Positions 31,923-38,746 of a stretch of DNA of 40,850 bases are shown here, piece by piece. The translations under genes were made by a program, and so were the position numbers. The stretch is from Anaerolineae bacterium (GTDB taxonomy: Bacteria; Chloroflexota; Anaerolineae; Aggregatilineales; Phototrophicaceae): contig JABWBO010000030.1 in NCBI GenBank assembly GCA_013360465.1, positions 1 through 40,850 of the forward strand, written 5' to 3'. The notes under the pieces were generated by a model. That model was not told where the DNA came from, made no database searches, and saw only the letters and a program-made list of their open reading frames with translations. Position 1 is the first letter of the stretch. Every line of letters begins with the position of its first letter.

Positions 31923-32320
31923 CCCGCGCCGCCGGGACGTATGTCCTACTGCTGAGCCTGCCGGCGATCACCCCTCTGGTCATCGGCAGGCTCGGCGCGT
32001 TCGACTTCCCCGCCGGATGGTACGCCTACGTGGGCAGCGCCTTCGGACCGGGCGGGCTGCGTGGGCGGTTGGCGCATCATCTCGCTCCGGTCCGCAAGCC
32101 GCACTGGCACATCGACTATCTGCGTCAGGCGGCGACCTGCCGCGAAGTCTGGTCCGTCGCCGGCGAGGCCAGCCGCGAACACGCCTGGGCGGCGGCGCTG
32201 CTGGCGACGCCGGGCGCATCGACGCCTGCGCCGCGCTTCGGCGCATCGGACTGCGCCTGCCCGACGCACCTGATCCACTTCGCCGTGAAACCAGACCTGA
32301 CGGCGCTCCTCGATCCATGA
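31919..32320 (+). CDS. DUF123 / GIY-YIG-like protein, apparent CTG start
   Basis: A 133-residue protein of the DUF123 (Uri-type, GIY-YIG-like) family, known as predicted nucleases. Family motifs are GTYVLLL at the start, IGRLGAFDFPAGWYAYVGSAFG, WHIDYL, and near the end FGASDCACPTHLIHF. Frame and family alignment put the N terminus at the CTG at 31919, which overlaps the epimerase stop in a CTGA arrangement. No ATG, GTG or TTG lies in this frame at a suitable place, and there is no ribosome site, so translation by reinitiation is inferred. It seems an add-on to the sugar operon and need not share its function. Confidence 0.82.
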   Translation: MTRAAGTYVLLLSLPAITPLVIGRLGAFDFPAGWYAYVGSAFGPGGLRGRLAHHLAPVRKPHWHIDYLRQAATCREVWSVAGEASREHAWAAALLATPGASTPAPRFGASDCACPTHLIHFAVKPDLTALLDP

Positions 32321-32400: not shown

Positions 32401-34494
32401 ATGCGGCGGCTCTCAACGCTCATCCTGACGATCCTGCTCGTCATTGCCGTGATGGTGACGGCGCTGCTGACCTACGGCTATCTGAGCTTTCGCAGCCGCC
32501 TGGAAGACAAAGCGGTCGCCGCCGCCCAGACTCAGGCGGTCGCCGCCTCGGAGCACATCAGCGCAGCGTTCGGCGAGGTGATGTCCACCGCCGCACTGCT
32601 CGCCGCTGAACTCGAAGACGGCGCGCTGCCCTACAGCAGCATCGAAACGCGCTTGCGCGAGATCGCCGCCGACCGCCCGAACATCGACGGCATCGCCATC
32701 ACGTTCGAGCCGTTCGCCTACGATCCTGATCTGCGCCTGTTTCAGACCTACGTCTACAAGCTGCCCGACGGCATGTACGATGCGCTGGTCGGGGCGACCT
32801 ACGACTACACCCAGACGCCCAACCCCGCCGCCGGGATCAACACCGGTTGGTACGTCGATACCCTGCGCGAAGGCGCGCAGTGGCATGAGCCGTTCTTTGC
32901 CACCGGCGCGCAGAAGATTCTGGTCGAATACGGGCTGCCCTTCGCGCCCCTCGGCGGGCAGGGCGAAGGTCCCGCCGGCATCATCAGCATCGACTACACC
33001 CTCCAGGATATGAGCGCGCTGATCCGGGCGCTGGAACTCGGCGCGACCGGCTACGGCTTCGTCATCTCGGCGGAGGGTAGATTTCTGGCGCACCCGGTGC
33101 GCGAATATATGGTCAACCGGACGATCTTCGAGGTCGGCAGCGACGAAGCGCTGACCGAGGCGGCGCGTCTGGCGCTCGGCGGAGCCAGTCAGTTCGTCGA
33201 AATCCCTGACCCGATCACCGGGGAGACGACGTGGCATTTCTTCGAGCCGATCGGCGCGACCGGCTGGTCCATCGGCATCGTCCTGGACTCCACCCACTTC
33301 CTTCCAGACGCCCGGCAGACCGTGCGCGATCAGATGACGATTGCCCTGGCGGCGGCGAGCGCCATCTTTCTGGCGGCGACGCTCCTCTTCCATGTCGATC
33401 ACTTCCACTTCACCAACTTCTGGACGGTCTCCGGCGTCTTTTCGATGCTGTGCGTCGCGCTGATCGCGCTGGCATGGACGCTGACCAACCGCCTGGAAGT
33501 CGTCGATGGCACAAGCATCACCAGCCCGTCGCAGATGGATCGCTACCTGGAGGGGTTGACGAGCGCCAACCCTGCCGCCGCGCCGCTGCGCGTGCCCACC
33601 GGTATCCTGATTCAGTCGCTTCAGTTTCCCGACGCCACCTCGGTAACGATCAACGGCTACATCTGGCAGCGCTACCCGGTCGACTCTCCGTTGCAGCGGG
33701 GGTTCGCCCTGCCGCAGCGCACCGGCGAAGAGGCGACGCTCGACGAGGTGAGCCGCCGGCGCATCGGCGATGAAGAGGTGATCACCTGGTACGTCGGGGT
33801 GACGCTGCGCCAGAGCTACGACCCGACGCGCTTCCCCTTTGACCACCGCCTCATCACGATCCGCCTTGCCCCGGCGGACCTGAACGCGGCGGTCATCCTC
33901 ATCCCAGACCTCGACGCCTATGACTTGATCAGCCCCCGCCTGCTGCCGGGGGTCGATCCGCAGGCGGGCGTCAACAACTGGTCCCTGCAAACCAGCCGCT
34001 TCGCCTATACCGCCGCGCCGATCACCACCTCGCTGGGCATGACGCGGGACGAAGCCGCCCCCCGGTCCGCTGAACTGCGCTTCAGCATCCAGGCGCAGCG
34101 CGTCTCCCTGGGACCCTTCATCGCTTATCTGCTGCCGGGGCTGATCGCGGCGGCGATGACCTTCGCCTATCTGATGAGCGGGCACGAGCCGGGGAAAGCG
34201 GAGCAGATCACCAACGCCCTCAATTACGCGGCGGCGCTCTTCTTCGTCGTGGCGGTGATCCACACCGCGCTGCGCGATCAAGTCGCGGCAGTCGGCATCA
34301 CCTACATGGAAGTGCTGTATATGCTGCTTTACGTGGCTATCGTGGCGGTGGCGGCGAATATCTTCGCCGTCGCCCGGCGTGCGGGGTGGGCGATAGTACG
34401 CTATCGCAACAACATCGCGCCGAAAGTGCTGTACTGGCCCGTCTTCGCCGGGGTGATGCTGATCGCCACGCTGGCGGTCTTCGTGTACTGCTGA
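32401..34494 (+). CDS. Cache-domain sensor fused to pentameric ligand-gated ion channel-like module
   Basis: A 697-residue membrane protein. An N-terminal helix (9-29) leads to an extracytosolic double Cache domain (about 35-300; WHEPFF, PAGIISIDY, GYGFVISAEGRFLAHP are typical). Two helices follow (about 314-332 and 341-361) and then a second extracytosolic beta-rich domain (about 375-565) with GILIQSLQFPDATSV, INGYIWQRY and the Pro-loop word RFPFD (477-481), as in prokaryotic pentameric channels such as GLIC (RYPFD). The end has four helices in channel spacing: about 571-593, 605-624, 634-658, 676-696, with the C terminus just after M4. No cysteine pair in the loop. No HAMP, kinase or cyclase part. 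I infer a ligand-sensing cation or anion channel. Alternative: another Cache-type membrane receptor with chance likeness in the second half. Confidence 0.78.
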   Translation: MRRLSTLILTILLVIAVMVTALLTYGYLSFRSRLEDKAVAAAQTQAVAASEHISAAFGEVMSTAALLAAELEDGALPYSSIETRLREIAADRPNIDGIAITFEPFAYDPDLRLFQTYVYKLPDGMYDALVGATYDYTQTPNPAAGINTGWYVDTLREGAQWHEPFFATGAQKILVEYGLPFAPLGGQGEGPAGIISIDYTLQDMSALIRALELGATGYGFVISAEGRFLAHPVREYMVNRTIFEVGSDEALTEAARLALGGASQFVEIPDPITGETTWHFFEPIGATGWSIGIVLDSTHFLPDARQTVRDQMTIALAAASAIFLAATLLFHVDHFHFTNFWTVSGVFSMLCVALIALAWTLTNRLEVVDGTSITSPSQMDRYLEGLTSANPAAAPLRVPTGILIQSLQFPDATSVTINGYIWQRYPVDSPLQRGFALPQRTGEEATLDEVSRRRIGDEEVITWYVGVTLRQSYDPTRFPFDHRLITIRLAPADLNAAVILIPDLDAYDLISPRLLPGVDPQAGVNNWSLQTSRFAYTAAPITTSLGMTRDEAAPRSAELRFSIQAQRVSLGPFIAYLLPGLIAAAMTFAYLMSGHEPGKAEQITNALNYAAALFFVVAVIHTALRDQVAAVGITYMEVLYMLLYVAIVAVAANIFAVARRAGWAIVRYRNNIAPKVLYWPVFAGVMLIATLAVFVYC

Positions 34495-34555
34495 CAGTGG
34501 ATCGTCCAGCGAGTACAAGGGGCAACCCCGACACGCCAGCCGCGCGCTTGGTGCG

Positions 34556-35767
34556 CTACTGCGAAGGGTACGACACCCCCCCGCCGGTGATGCGGTTCAG
34601 CCACTCCTGGGCGAAGGTGTAATTGGGGTCCAGTCTCAGCGCGTGTCGCAGATCCCATACCGCCTGCCAGGGGTTGCCTTTGAAGTACCAGCACACCCCA
34701 CGTCCACCGTAGGCATAGGCATAGGTCGGCGCGACCTGAATCGCCCGCTCGTAATCCATCAGCGCGGCGTCATACTGCCCCCAGCCCATCAGTACGTTGC
34801 CGTGATTGTAGTAGGGATACGGCGTGTTCGGCTCAAGGCGCATAGCGGCTTCGAAGTCGGCGAGCGCGGCGGTGGCGTTGCCGAGCGCCTGCTGCGCCAG
34901 CCCGCGATTCAGATACGCCGCCCCATTCATCGGCGCGAGCATCAGGCAGGCGTTGTAATCACTGACCGCCCCGGCGAAGTCGCCCCGCTGCTGCCGCGCC
35001 CAGCCCCGATTGATATACATCAGGGGGTTGTTGTTTTCCAGGCGGATGGCGCTGTCATAATCCTGAATCGCTGCGATGAGGTCGCCTTTGCGGAAGCGCG
35101 ACCAGCCTCGGTTGTTGTACGCCATCGCAAAATTCGGGTCCAGGCGGATCACCTCGTCGTAGTCGCGGATCGCCCCATCGTGATTTTCGACGGAGGCTTT
35201 GGCGAACGCCTGCTGGAATAACTGCTGCGCGTTCATCTGCTGCACCGTCGGCAGCGGCGCGGCGAACGCCGCCTCAATTCGCCGCTGCACATCGGCGCGC
35301 TCCGCCGCCGGCGTAGGATGAATGACCAGGTCAAGCGTCTTGTTCAGATAGCGCCGTTCCAGTTTGTCAATCGCTTCGTCGAAATAGCCGCGCGGCACTT
35401 CCAGCGCATTGTAGTCCTTCAGCAGCGCCAGCTGACCCACCAGGTACGGCTTCGCCTGCTCCCAGTTGAAATCGTCGAAGGTGACGGGGATGACGTTGCG
35501 CCGCTCGGCAATCGCTGCTTCGATCTCCCGGCGCACCCAGTCGCCCGGCTCGATGCAGCGGCTCAGCGTGTCGGCGTGTAGGATCAGCACAAAGTGCGCC
35601 CGTGCGCGAATCTGGTTCAGGATCACCTGCTCGAATGACCCGGAGTCGATGCTTTCGAAGTCGAAGAAGACGTCGTAGCCCCGCCCTTTCAGCGCGTGGA
35701 AGACGTTCAGGGCGGTGTAGTAGCTGGTGCGTCGGTAGCTGATGAAGATGGTCTTTTCGATCTGCAT
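34556..35767 (-). CDS. TIR-domain protein with C-terminal TPR repeats
   Basis: A 403-residue soluble protein. An N-terminal TIR domain (about 5-135) shows IFISYRR, YDVFFDFESIDSG, and GDWVRREIEAAI followed by RRNVIPV. Glu81 in WVRREI is at the position of the catalytic glutamate in NAD-cleaving TIR domains such as SARM1, so NADase activity is possible. A linker (about 136-180) is followed by about six TPR units (about 185-395), e.g. AIRDYDEVIRLDPNFAMAY and AIQDYDSAIRLENNNPLMY, for protein contacts. The ATG at 35767 has GGTGGAG just upstream; a TTG four codons earlier is less likely. It is convergent with the Cache-channel gene (61 bp between stops). Confidence 0.88.
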   Translation of the reverse strand: MQIEKTIFISYRRTSYYTALNVFHALKGRGYDVFFDFESIDSGSFEQVILNQIRARAHFVLILHADTLSRCIEPGDWVRREIEAAIAERRNVIPVTFDDFNWEQAKPYLVGQLALLKDYNALEVPRGYFDEAIDKLERRYLNKTLDLVIHPTPAAERADVQRRIEAAFAAPLPTVQQMNAQQLFQQAFAKASVENHDGAIRDYDEVIRLDPNFAMAYNNRGWSRFRKGDLIAAIQDYDSAIRLENNNPLMYINRGWARQQRGDFAGAVSDYNACLMLAPMNGAAYLNRGLAQQALGNATAALADFEAAMRLEPNTPYPYYNHGNVLMGWGQYDAALMDYERAIQVAPTYAYAYGGRGVCWYFKGNPWQAVWDLRHALRLDPNYTFAQEWLNRITGGGVSYPSQ

Positions 35768-36012
35768 GGCTCCACCCAATTAGACGACGGCACAGTTCCC
35801 TGATACAGCGATCATATCCCATTTTTGTGGGGGATCGCACCTGAATCAAAGCATATCTTCTCGGTCAGGATGCCCCTCTGTGAAGCAAAGGTTAACGATG
35901 CTTCACACAATCATCACAAGCCATTGCATAGAATCCACAGGAGTTCACGGCGTATCCTGCCGGCACGCCGGCAAAGCCAGGTCAAGACCATCATCAGCAC
36001 CACAGGAGACAC

Positions 36013-37623
36013 ATGACCCGCAAAGCATCGCGCTCCTTCTGCCATTTCGGCAGCGCAGTTCTCATCATCCTGCTGTTTGCCACAGCCTGTTCCAGCGGCG
36101 GTCCTTCGACGACGCTGCGCATCGTCTCCGGGTCGGAAAATCGACCGCTGGAACCGATCATCCAGGAATGGGCGCGTTCGCACAACACAACGGTTGAGAT
36201 GACCTATCAGGGGTCGGTCGATATTGCCCGGCTGCTGCAAAACGGCGGCGCGTCGTTTGACGGGGTGTGGCCCGCCAACCGTCTGTGGATCGATTTCGGC
36301 GACACCCAGAATATCGTGCGTCACGATGCCAGCATCATGCGTTCGCCGGTGATCCTGGGCGTCAAACGCAGTATCGCCGAAAGTCTGGGATGGCTGAATC
36401 GCGATGTGACCCTCAGCAACATCCTCACCGCCGCTGAATCCGACGATCTGCGCTTCATGATGACCTCCGCCACTCAGTCCAATTCAGGCGCATCGTTCTA
36501 CTTCGGGGCGCTCAACGCCTTTGCCGGCTCGCCAGAGGTGGTCACCGGCGCGCACCTGGAAGACTCCGCCGTCACCGAACAGGTCGAACGCATCCTCGGC
36601 GAGGTCGATCGTTCCAGCGGCAGCAGCGGCTTCCTCAAAGACCTGTTCTTGCAGCAGTATGACCGGTTCGACGCGATGGTCAATTACGAAGCAGTGATTA
36701 TCGAGACCAACCAAGCGCTGCTGCGCAGCGGGCGCGAACCGCTCTATGCCATTTATCCTGTCGATGGGCTGACCATCGCCGATTCCCCCCTGGGCTACAT
36801 CGACCGGGGCGAGGAGGCGAAGGAAGAGGCGTTTCTGGCGCTTCAGCAGCACCTCCTCAGCGAGACCGTCCAGCGGCAGCTCCTGGCGCAGGGGCGGCGC
36901 ACCAGCCTGCTCGGCATCGATCTCTCGAGTGCCGACCGCAGCGTCTTCCGCCCGGAATGGGGTATTGATGCCGATCGCCTACTCCAGCCGATTCGCCTGC
37001 CGAGCCGCGAGGTCATCGAGCAGGCGCTCAACCTCTACCAGATCGCCTTGCGCCGTCCCTCCTGCACGATCTATGTCCTCGACTTCTCCGGCAGCATGGC
37101 GGAGCGGGGCGAAGCCGATCTCAAGGCGGCGATGCGCACCCTGCTCAATCAGTCCATCGCCCAGCAGTATTTCCTGCAAGGGCATCCTGGAGATGTCACC
37201 CAGGTCATTCTGTTCAACGAAAACATCATCAACCAGAATGAGCTGAGCCGCTGGCGGGTGGTCGGCAGCGATCCAGAGGATCTGCTGCACCTTTCGCGGC
37301 AGATCGAAGCGGTCAGTTCTGGCGGCAATACCAACATCTTCGACTCCACCCGACTCGCCCTGGAAGAGATGTCTCGACTGCGCACGCCGGAATGCCTGCC
37401 CGCCGTCATCCTGATGACCGATGGGCAGGACAACAGCGGAGATCGATCTGCACTGGAGCGTTACGTCGATTCGCGCGAAAACGATATCCCTGTCTTCGCC
37501 ATCATGTTCGGCAGCGCCGACTCCGAACAGCTTGACCCGATCGTGGCGCGCACTTATGGGCGCGTTTTCGACGGACGAAGCGACCTTGTGACCGCTTTCC
37601 GCGAAGCCAAGGGCTACAACTAA
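36013..37623 (+). CDS. Lipoprotein with solute-binding domain fused to VWA domain
   Basis: A 536-residue exported protein. The N terminus is a lipoprotein signal with ATAC (Cys26) after a hydrophobic stretch. Residues about 30-335 look like a type II periplasmic binding protein (LRIVSGSENRPLEPI at its start). Residues about 350-530 form a von Willebrand A domain with a full metal site: DFSGSM (Asp357, Ser359, Ser361), Thr440 (GGNTNIFD) and Asp470 (MTDGQD). So a ligand-binding module and a metal-dependent adhesion module are joined on one membrane-anchored chain. The next gene encodes a binding-domain paralogue without VWA, 13 bp later. The ligand is unknown; no ABC permease is nearby, so transport is not implied. 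Confidence 0.88.
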   Translation: MTRKASRSFCHFGSAVLIILLFATACSSGGPSTTLRIVSGSENRPLEPIIQEWARSHNTTVEMTYQGSVDIARLLQNGGASFDGVWPANRLWIDFGDTQNIVRHDASIMRSPVILGVKRSIAESLGWLNRDVTLSNILTAAESDDLRFMMTSATQSNSGASFYFGALNAFAGSPEVVTGAHLEDSAVTEQVERILGEVDRSSGSSGFLKDLFLQQYDRFDAMVNYEAVIIETNQALLRSGREPLYAIYPVDGLTIADSPLGYIDRGEEAKEEAFLALQQHLLSETVQRQLLAQGRRTSLLGIDLSSADRSVFRPEWGIDADRLLQPIRLPSREVIEQALNLYQIALRRPSCTIYVLDFSGSMAERGEADLKAAMRTLLNQSIAQQYFLQGHPGDVTQVILFNENIINQNELSRWRVVGSDPEDLLHLSRQIEAVSSGGNTNIFDSTRLALEEMSRLRTPECLPAVILMTDGQDNSGDRSALERYVDSRENDIPVFAIMFGSADSEQLDPIVARTYGRVFDGRSDLVTAFREAKGYN

Positions 37624-37636
37624 GGATCGCACCACC

Positions 37637-38746
37637 ATGAACAACCGACTGGCGCTCGTCCGCTCGCTTATCGTCCTGGCTTTTGTCGTCTTCGTCCTGG
37701 TGGTGCTGCTGCCGACCATCATTCAGCAGGTCACGCCGCGCACTCTGACGACCGTCACCTGCTTTGTCGGCAGTGAAAAAGACGACTTCCTCAAAAACCC
37801 GGAGGTCGTCCGCCTGCTCGCCGACCGCTACGGCTTGGAAGTCAGCTACAGCCGCGTGGGCAGCATCGAGCAGGCGTTCATCGACTCGTCGCAGGTGGAC
37901 TGCCTGTGGCCCTCCAACACCAGCGCGCTGGAAATCTACCGCAGCCAGCACCAGCAGGATTTTGACAGCGGCGGGATCAGCTACGAGACGATCTTCAACT
38001 CACCCATCGTCCTTTTCTCCTGGACGCCCCTGGTACAGGCGCTCGTCGATCAGGGGTTGTTCGTCGTTCAGCCAGAAGGATACACCACCGTCGATACTAC
38101 CCGGCTGATCGAACTGCTCACCAGGACGCCCAAACCCACCTGGGCGGAAGTCGGCGTGGACGAACTGTTCGGCTCCTTCAACGTCATCACCAGCGACCCC
38201 GCGCGCAGCAATTCCGGCAACATGTTCTACGGCTTGTTCGCCAACATGCTCGCCGGCGGGCAGGTGGCATCGCTGGAGGCAATGCGCGAAAACCTGCCGG
38301 CGCTCCGAGCCTACTATGAAAGCCAGGGCTATATGGAAGAAAGTTCGGGCATCCTGTTCGAACGTTTCGTCAACACCGGCATGGGCGCGCACCCGATCAT
38401 CGCCAATTACGAAAGCCTGCTGATCGAGTTCATCGTGCAGCATCGTGAGCAGATGGACGCCGTGCTGAGCCAGATTCACATCATCTACCCGACTCCTACA
38501 GTCTGGTCTTCGCACCCGCTGATCGCCCGCACCGATGCTGGCAGGAAACTGCTGGAAGCGCTGCGCGATGAGCGCCTCCAGCAGATCGCCTGGGAGCAGC
38601 ACGGTTTCAGGAGCGGCTTGTTGGGCATCGAAAACGATCCGTCAATCCTGTCGCTGACCGGCATCCCGGCGGAGATCACCTCGGTCATTCCGCTGCCGCG
38701 CGCCGAAGGCATCATCGAAATGCTGGACTTCCTACGCCAGCCCTGA
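37637..38746 (+). CDS. Membrane-anchored solute-binding-like protein
   Basis: A 369-residue protein with one N-terminal helix (about 9-31) and no lipobox, so probably kept in the membrane with the rest outside. The remainder is a periplasmic-binding-like fold: VTCFVGSEKDDFL at the first strand, CLWPSNTSALEIY, NVITSDPARSNSGNMFYG and IIANYESLLIEF. The last two are like MTSATQSNSGASFYFG and MVNYEAVIIE in the upstream VWA protein, so the two are paralogues. It starts 13 bp after that gene and is thus co-transcribed. It lacks the VWA part. A paired function as sensor or co-receptor is inference. Confidence 0.82.
   Translation: MNNRLALVRSLIVLAFVVFVLVVLLPTIIQQVTPRTLTTVTCFVGSEKDDFLKNPEVVRLLADRYGLEVSYSRVGSIEQAFIDSSQVDCLWPSNTSALEIYRSQHQQDFDSGGISYETIFNSPIVLFSWTPLVQALVDQGLFVVQPEGYTTVDTTRLIELLTRTPKPTWAEVGVDELFGSFNVITSDPARSNSGNMFYGLFANMLAGGQVASLEAMRENLPALRAYYESQGYMEESSGILFERFVNTGMGAHPIIANYESLLIEFIVQHREQMDAVLSQIHIIYPTPTVWSSHPLIARTDAGRKLLEALRDERLQQIAWEQHGFRSGLLGIENDPSILSLTGIPAEITSVIPLPRAEGIIEMLDFLRQP

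Follow-up and report, generated by a model that had tools for sequence, protein, structure and literature searches.

A single open reading frame on contig JABWBO010000030.1 of an Anaerolineae bacterium (assembly GCA_013360465.1, Chloroflexota) raises the question of whether a Cache sensor, held in the membrane by helices of its own, can be combined in one chain with the channel module of the pentameric ligand-gated ion channels (pLGICs). The frame occupies positions 32401-34494 (+) of the window, by which we mean the whole stretch of 40,850 nucleotides that was analysed, and its translation has 697 residues; both values are those of the preliminary description. We consider it fairly probable that this protein is a divergent subunit of the pLGIC superfamily which uses a membrane-tethered double Cache domain as its input sensor, so that the complex would represent a Cache-modulated ion channel. 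The order of its parts is Cache-TM-TM-ligand domain-M1-M4, as follows:

32401..34494 (+), the whole ORF of 697 aa, TM1-dCache-TM2-TM3-Pro-loop ligand domain-M1-M4, based on the translation and the long relatives
32416..32472 (+), TM1 (residues 6-24), the N-terminal anchor, from hydropathy; two Arg precede the span
32527..33279 (+), double Cache sensor domain (residues 43-293), from Pfam and PDB matches
33334..33390 (+), TM2 (residues 312-330), from hydropathy; also a helix in a low-confidence model
33427..33483 (+), TM3 (residues 343-361), the additional helix preceding the ligand domain, from hydropathy; present in Cache-less relatives
33526..33564 (+), short linker helix (residues 376-388) between TM3 and ligand domain, predicted in low-confidence models
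33595..34098 (+), putative pLGIC-type extracytosolic ligand domain (residues about 399-566), from the ligand-domain columns in hhalign (E 2.6e-8) and the GLIC profile match
33832..33843 (+), Pro-loop F/Y-P-x-D (residues 478-481); P, D and F/Y each in 25/25 aligned members
33979..33981 (+), W527, in line with the superfamily beta9 Trp; 25/25, aligning with the Trp of GLIC 'GWD'
34099..34101 (+), R567, the pre-M1 Arg; 24/25
34117..34173 (+), M1 (residues 573-591) with the kink Pro P579, from hydropathy; the R567-P579 spacing of 12 equals GLIC 192/204
34207..34275 (+), M2 (residues about 603-625), the presumed pore helix, register uncertain, from alignments and hydropathy
34312..34368 (+), M3 (residues 638-656), from hydropathy; E637, immediately N-terminal to it, is 25/25
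34426..34482 (+), M4 (residues 676-694), from hydropathy; W679-P680 are 25/25

Hydropathy analysis gives the spans 6-24, 312-330, 343-361, 573-591, 603-621, 638-656 and 676-694, and the C-terminus lies 3 residues past the last of them, which agrees with the earlier claim that four helices follow the ligand domain and that the chain ends right after M4. The word RFPFD, previously placed at 477-481, was also found in the translation (R477-F478-P479-F480-D481). One further weak hydrophobic span (484-502, mean 1.54) falls within the ligand domain and was rejected as a TM helix, since it is absent from the near-identical protein L002, a 90% identical copy in another assembly titled Anaerolineae bacterium and the only relative obtained by the contig search of named genomes. 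The antisense ORF 32413-34518 was likewise rejected as a gene, being a shadow of the conserved plus-strand protein.

The gene is immediately preceded by a frame for a DUF123 protein (31928-32320, +) and adjoined on the opposite strand by one encoding a TIR_2 domain followed by TPR repeats (34556-35779, -). Further downstream lie a fusion of the solute-binding domain SBP_bac_11 with a von Willebrand A domain (36013-37623, +) and, after it, a frame with no Pfam match up to E 0.001 (37637-38746, +).

The identity of the first half is the simpler part of the question. In Pfam, dCache_1 matches residues 43-293 with E 8.4e-9 and 35.7 bits, under its 45-bit cut-off, and MCP-like_PDC_1 exceeds its cut-off in this half (30.1 vs 27). 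The closest PDB matches are Cache sensors that belong to a kinase and to chemoreceptors, including 3li8 (2.4e-12) and PctA (9.1e-8). The domain lies between TM spans 6-24 and 312-330; together with the profile matches, this qualifies it as a dCache-family member, and the TM1-Cache-TM2 arrangement is the usual one for chemoreceptor sensors. The preliminary description of a membrane-tethered Cache followed by two extra helices is thus borne out, with TM1 and TM2 flanking the domain and TM3 beyond them. The likeness to the dCache chemoreceptors and kinases (PctA and the 3li8 family) ends at the output, which in those proteins is HAMP/MCP or a kinase, whereas here it is the pLGIC-like module. The alignment with PctA reveals a W-Y pair common to both proteins, but the Arg which precedes this pair in PctA stands opposite T148. 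This Arg of PctA contacts amino-acid carboxylates. If that is its role, the ligand of the Cache domain analysed here is probably something other than a plain amino acid, because the carboxylate-contacting Arg is replaced by T148.

The identity of the second half is less easily seen, since single-sequence and small-profile searches are silent. The channel half alone gave no Pfam match up to E 1. For the nine members of alignment A1, no Pfam or NCBIfam channel model scored E 10 or better, the NCBIfam matches being at the level of chance (best 0.16), and no Pfam channel model matched eight further long relatives, five Cache-less relatives or the Vibrio and Acaryochloris proteins. In the PDB, the 9-member profile did not reach any pLGIC; its sole match was the unrelated Toc75 at 0.89. 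The check for a Neur_chan-type match proposed earlier was therefore negative for the single sequence and the 9-member profile, but positive for a 25-member profile (alignment A8), which reaches GLIC with a best E of 5.7e-6 (3lsv) and matches 3eam, which we take to be wild-type GLIC, at 2e-4. This profile matched 76 distinct PDB sequences at E<=10, and the best 60 of the 76 are all named proton- or ligand-gated channels, Glr4197, or chimeras thereof. Alignment A8 left out the near-copy L008, the gene split across two frames (L011/L012), and L013-L022 and L052-L071, most of which duplicate matches already obtained or cover shorter parts of them; three real relatives were also left out, namely G410 (L020), G483 (L059, a fragment) and G644 (L066/L070, two pieces).

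For a comparison at closer range, eight reference pLGICs of the same phylum were assembled via PF02932, separately from the relatives of our protein. PF02932 was above its cut-off in 6/400 genomes of the phylum. It was above the cut-off in all five scanned proteins L043-L047, borderline in L048 (27.6 vs 28.1 bits; 28.4 when scanned with its neighbours) and under the cut-off in L049 (21.7 bits), and L087, a later addition, matches only PF02931 (0.093). One reference protein matches a GLIC/glycine-receptor chimera (2.4e-12), while a profile built from the first seven references reaches a GLIC/GABA-A chimera (3.8e-30). The window's own genome gave no match to PF02931 or PF02932, and the PF02931 control set was equally silent, so that the PF02931 negative carries little weight.

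Several of these references are sensor fusions themselves. L044 (3-3836, -) and L045 (2802-6431, +) encode single proteins of 1210-1278 aa, in which a PF02932-positive pLGIC has Peripla_BP_6 on its N-terminal side and the solute-binding domain SBP_bac_1 on its C-terminal side. L043 (1035-3611) and L087 (909-3515) combine in one chain a TPR-like N-terminus, a hydrophobic span (computed for L087, assigned by eye for L043), a Peripla_BP_6 sensor and the pLGIC. The TPR match is to TPR_19 and sub-threshold; possibly, the chain is a PBP-gated channel with a TPR tail in the cytosol.

Alignment of the 25 members with the eight references by hhalign gave a probability of 98.7, E 3.7e-16 and a score of 119.4 over 266 collinear columns, vs a maximum of 26.9 for 30 permuted controls and 16.3 for one reversed control. 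Both parts contribute, with E 2.6e-8 for the ligand-domain columns alone and 4.5e-7 for the membrane columns alone. A smaller comparison (9 vs 7 members) gave E 2.7e-10 and a score of 77.3, again collinear from the ligand domain into the membrane helices, while 40 permuted and two reversed controls reached at most 21.8 and the Cache half 14.5. In HMMER, a 10-member profile also matches the PBP-pLGIC L087 (7e-8 among the tested ORFs, 7e-5 in the genome scan). The earlier proposal that the second half is akin to prokaryotic pLGICs is upheld by the GLIC profile match and by these collinear alignments with far lower controls; at the level of sequence comparison they demonstrate the homology of this half to the pLGICs.

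Structural modelling adds little to this. The AlphaFold2 alignments consisted of two rows, the window protein and the near-identical L002, and the resulting pLDDT was 45 for the channel half and 34 for the whole chain. The channel-half model has seven strands and, at its C-terminal end, four helices; the 10-strand sandwich named in the earlier check did not emerge at this confidence. For the weak channel-half model, the best 50 of 1268 Foldseek rows are all pLGICs with TM scores of 0.22-0.37, GLIC being matched with E 1.8e-5 and TM 0.37. The best 50 rows of a VIA search with the same model are also all pLGICs (best Z 9.3 with an rmsd of 8.9; middling Z values are common with this method). Both results lend weak support to a pLGIC fold of the predicted structure. 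The missing single-sequence Pfam match and the poor models would suit an unrelated beta domain with four helices that merely imitate a pLGIC; we strongly disfavour this view, and consider it highly improbable, in the face of the GLIC profile match, the alignment, collinear over both ligand domain and helices and backed by clean controls, and the conserved signatures described below.

These signatures also bear on whether the module conducts ions. Of the seven conserved superfamily positions listed in the available part of Jaiteh et al. 2016 (PMC4795631), the window protein has six, the missing one being the Pro of the M2-M3 loop, which according to the same text is present in 88% of the superfamily and is not universal. 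Among the 25 members, the F/Y, P and D of the Pro-loop and the beta9 Trp are invariant (25 each), the pre-M1 Arg occurs in 24 with Gln in the remaining one, and the M1 kink Pro is found in 15 (P579 in the window protein). The distance of 12 residues from R567 to P579 is that of GLIC (192 to 204). No Pro is located between R625 and Y635 of the window protein, and the presumed M2-M3 columns of the 25 members contain one Pro at column 629 and none at 630 and 632. Two residues at the end of M2, F615 and R625, are retained in 25/25. The register of M2, and with it the placing of the 0' basic residue and the 9' Leu/Phe, differs between HMMER and hhalign, and in neither alignment was an Arg or Lys seen at position 0'. 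Judged by the alignments, the pore chemistry would depart from the usual kind, since the M2-M3 Pro is absent and neither register shows a 0' Arg/Lys. The orthosteric site may be reduced as well, because few residues separate the beta2 Trp from the Pro-loop and WxPD is absent there. The gating machinery, in contrast, seems to be under selection, as suggested by the retention of the coupling residues and of F615 and R625.

The main doubt about a Cache-modulated channel thus concerns conduction: the M2-M3 Pro is gone, and the register of M2, on which the selectivity depends, varies with the alignment. One could suppose that the protein is a pLGIC-derived receptor without an open pore, an oligomeric scaffold that hands the signal of the Cache on to a different membrane protein. 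The lack of the M2-M3 Pro and of a clear 0' basic residue, the variation of the M2 register with the alignment and the very low identity to the superfamily would agree with this, but the Pro-loop P and D, the pre-M1 R, the M1 P, F615 and R625 are all kept, and neither a cytosolic output domain nor a conserved neighbour is present. Across 11 neighbourhoods, in which families were linked by blastp matches of more than 60 bits, no conserved operon partner was detected, nothing but the gene and the frame antisense to it recurring in more than two. We therefore regard a non-conducting receptor as unlikely.

The Cache-modulated channel gains from the repeated occurrence of its plan in other bacteria. 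Six long relatives align with the window protein from end to end at 37-42% identity, and the complete relatives fetched first have open frames of 721-756 aa. The order Cache-TM-TM-ligand domain-M1-M4 is found in the window protein, in its f25 relatives, in L073, L074, L075 and L088, and in L050 from a Vibrio plasmid, which is 26% identical across the matched pieces. All eight further long relatives have seven hydrophobic spans (at a threshold of 1.5; lowering it to 1.4 produced additional spans in L004, L006, L008 and L010, in a count where L005 was read from an internal Met), and 7/8 have a Pfam Cache match; in L086, for which Pfam finds no Cache, the sensor half was assigned by position and by the seven spans alone. 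The Cache matches of the relatives range from above cut-off to weak (5.6e-4 in L004; 4.6e-9, under the cut-off, in L010).

Other relatives are devoid of the Cache domain. In L051 from an Acaryochloris plasmid and in L076 and L080-L085, one TM helix is directly followed by the ligand domain, so that the equivalent of TM3 is retained; five spans were counted in 6/7 of the Cache-less proteins and four in 1/7. The L051 gene (5986-7443) resides on a plasmid typed as conjugative. A third layout is represented by L077-L079, all three of which show the beginning of SBP_bac_5 past M4, in each case sub-threshold and with the DNA ending within the domain. The same three, with open frames of 1323-1399 aa, can be described as Cache-TM-TM-pLGIC-like up to M4.

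The distribution of the family is patchy. A relative of the channel half occurs in 9/400 genomes of the phylum, the window's own included, and in 9/41 genomes of one other family of the phylum. Matches were found in 16/396 genomes of the class, one of which is a PBP-pLGIC (G484, L087), leaving 15 for the family of the window protein, and in 4/101 genomes of the order. Within the genus, 5/8 listed genomes, the window's own being one of the eight, are without the gene. Viral contigs and phages yielded no relative.

In a tree of 33 rows, the 25 members and the eight reference pLGICs are split by a branch with 100/100 support. When the rows are labelled with the three layouts and the reference group, three changes are required, the minimum possible. 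The Cache-less group forms one side of the tree with support of only 40/38, and the row of L050 is long and unsure. The PBP-pLGIC fusions L043-L045 and L087 resemble the window protein in being sensor-pLGIC fusions of the same phylum, but their sensor is Peripla_BP_6 and they group with the references, across the 100/100 branch from its clade.

How far this layout differs from known systems determines what remains of the earlier suggestion of a distinct receptor-channel plan. GLIC shares the core ligand domain with M1-M4, the F/YPxD motif, the beta9 Trp, the pre-M1 Arg, the M1 Pro and the 12-residue spacing, while the window protein, unlike GLIC, is deprived of the M2-M3 Pro. To our knowledge, GLIC has neither an N-terminal sensor nor a TM helix before its ligand domain. 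DeCLIC, the pLGIC of Desulfofustis, is also a prokaryotic member with a modulatory N-terminal module, composed of NTD1 and NTD2; in the accessible text of PMC9897478 and PMC12664993 these are jelly-roll lobes on the ECD periphery, whereas the module found here is a Cache tethered by separate TM helices. The available portion of a Cache census (PMC4822843) gives only VWA_N and VGCC_alpha2 as ion-channel partners.

The closest precedent is provided by Tasneem et al. 2004 (PMC549065), whose available text describes 'MCP-N and Cache' fused before the pLGIC core in Methanosarcina, Cytophaga and Microbulbifer. These ART-LGICs thus share with the window protein a Cache-type sensor N-terminal to the core in one chain, so the plan is less novel than first proposed, although the tethered layout itself stands. 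The window protein could then be an ordinary member of the 2004 fusions with nothing new in its layout, which would be compatible with a Cache-modulated channel and for which the occurrence of MCP-N plus Cache in three lineages speaks. We nevertheless find this rather unlikely. The same portion of the paper locates the additional domains after the signal peptide and before the ligand domain, and does not speak of TM helices separating them; here, by comparison, the Cache is not joined directly to the ligand domain, as TM2 (312-330) and TM3 (343-361) intervene, and the helix nearest the ligand domain is kept in relatives without a Cache. Moreover, in the tree of the 25 members and the eight reference Chloroflexota pLGICs, a 100/100 branch separates the clade from the references. 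With TM helices on both sides of its Cache and a further one before the ligand domain, the window protein differs from the ART-LGICs as that text describes them, though these proteins may themselves share its layout. In a literature search with subscription papers mostly outside its scope, we found no description of a pLGIC preceded by a Cache that has TM helices of its own, nor of a TM helix directly before a pLGIC ligand domain. The membrane-tethered layout and the deep clade with a helix before the ligand domain, whose tested members have no Pfam channel match, therefore look new, the 2004 proteins being compared by description only.

If the protein is a Cache-modulated channel, its action may be envisaged as follows. 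The N-terminus would be located inside, with the Cache and the ligand domain both outside; this topology fits because the number of helices between the two domains is even and because a solute-binding domain starts past M4 in three relatives, as suits an outside C-terminus. Five subunits would assemble around M2, which would form the pore, in keeping with the pore-lining role suggested earlier for helix 605-624. Binding of a solute to the Cache would shift TM1/TM2, and the TM2-TM3 hairpin and TM3, placed beside M1/M4 and connected with the ligand domain through about 37 linker residues, would relay this shift to the pore, so that the ion pathway opens or closes. The ligand domain may either retain its own site or serve chiefly as a coupling scaffold.

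A broader reading, which we put forward only tentatively and do not favour, is that the clade represents a deep pLGIC branch in which the ligand domain of each subunit is entered via the membrane helix TM3, and in which a swappable membrane sensor gates the pore through membrane helices and not through the classical inter-subunit site. This sensor could be a Cache, nothing at all, or a solute-binding domain past M4. If this reading is true, signalling across the membrane in the style of chemoreceptors opens a pore of the neurotransmitter-receptor type in bacteria.

If the Cache-modulated channel is confirmed, the pLGIC superfamily would gain a branch that is missed by the Pfam channel models in its tested members, which suggests that prokaryotic pLGICs are undercounted. 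It would also become possible to ask whether a Cache sensor can drive a pLGIC pore from the membrane side, and the question of what bacteria use such channels for would be opened.
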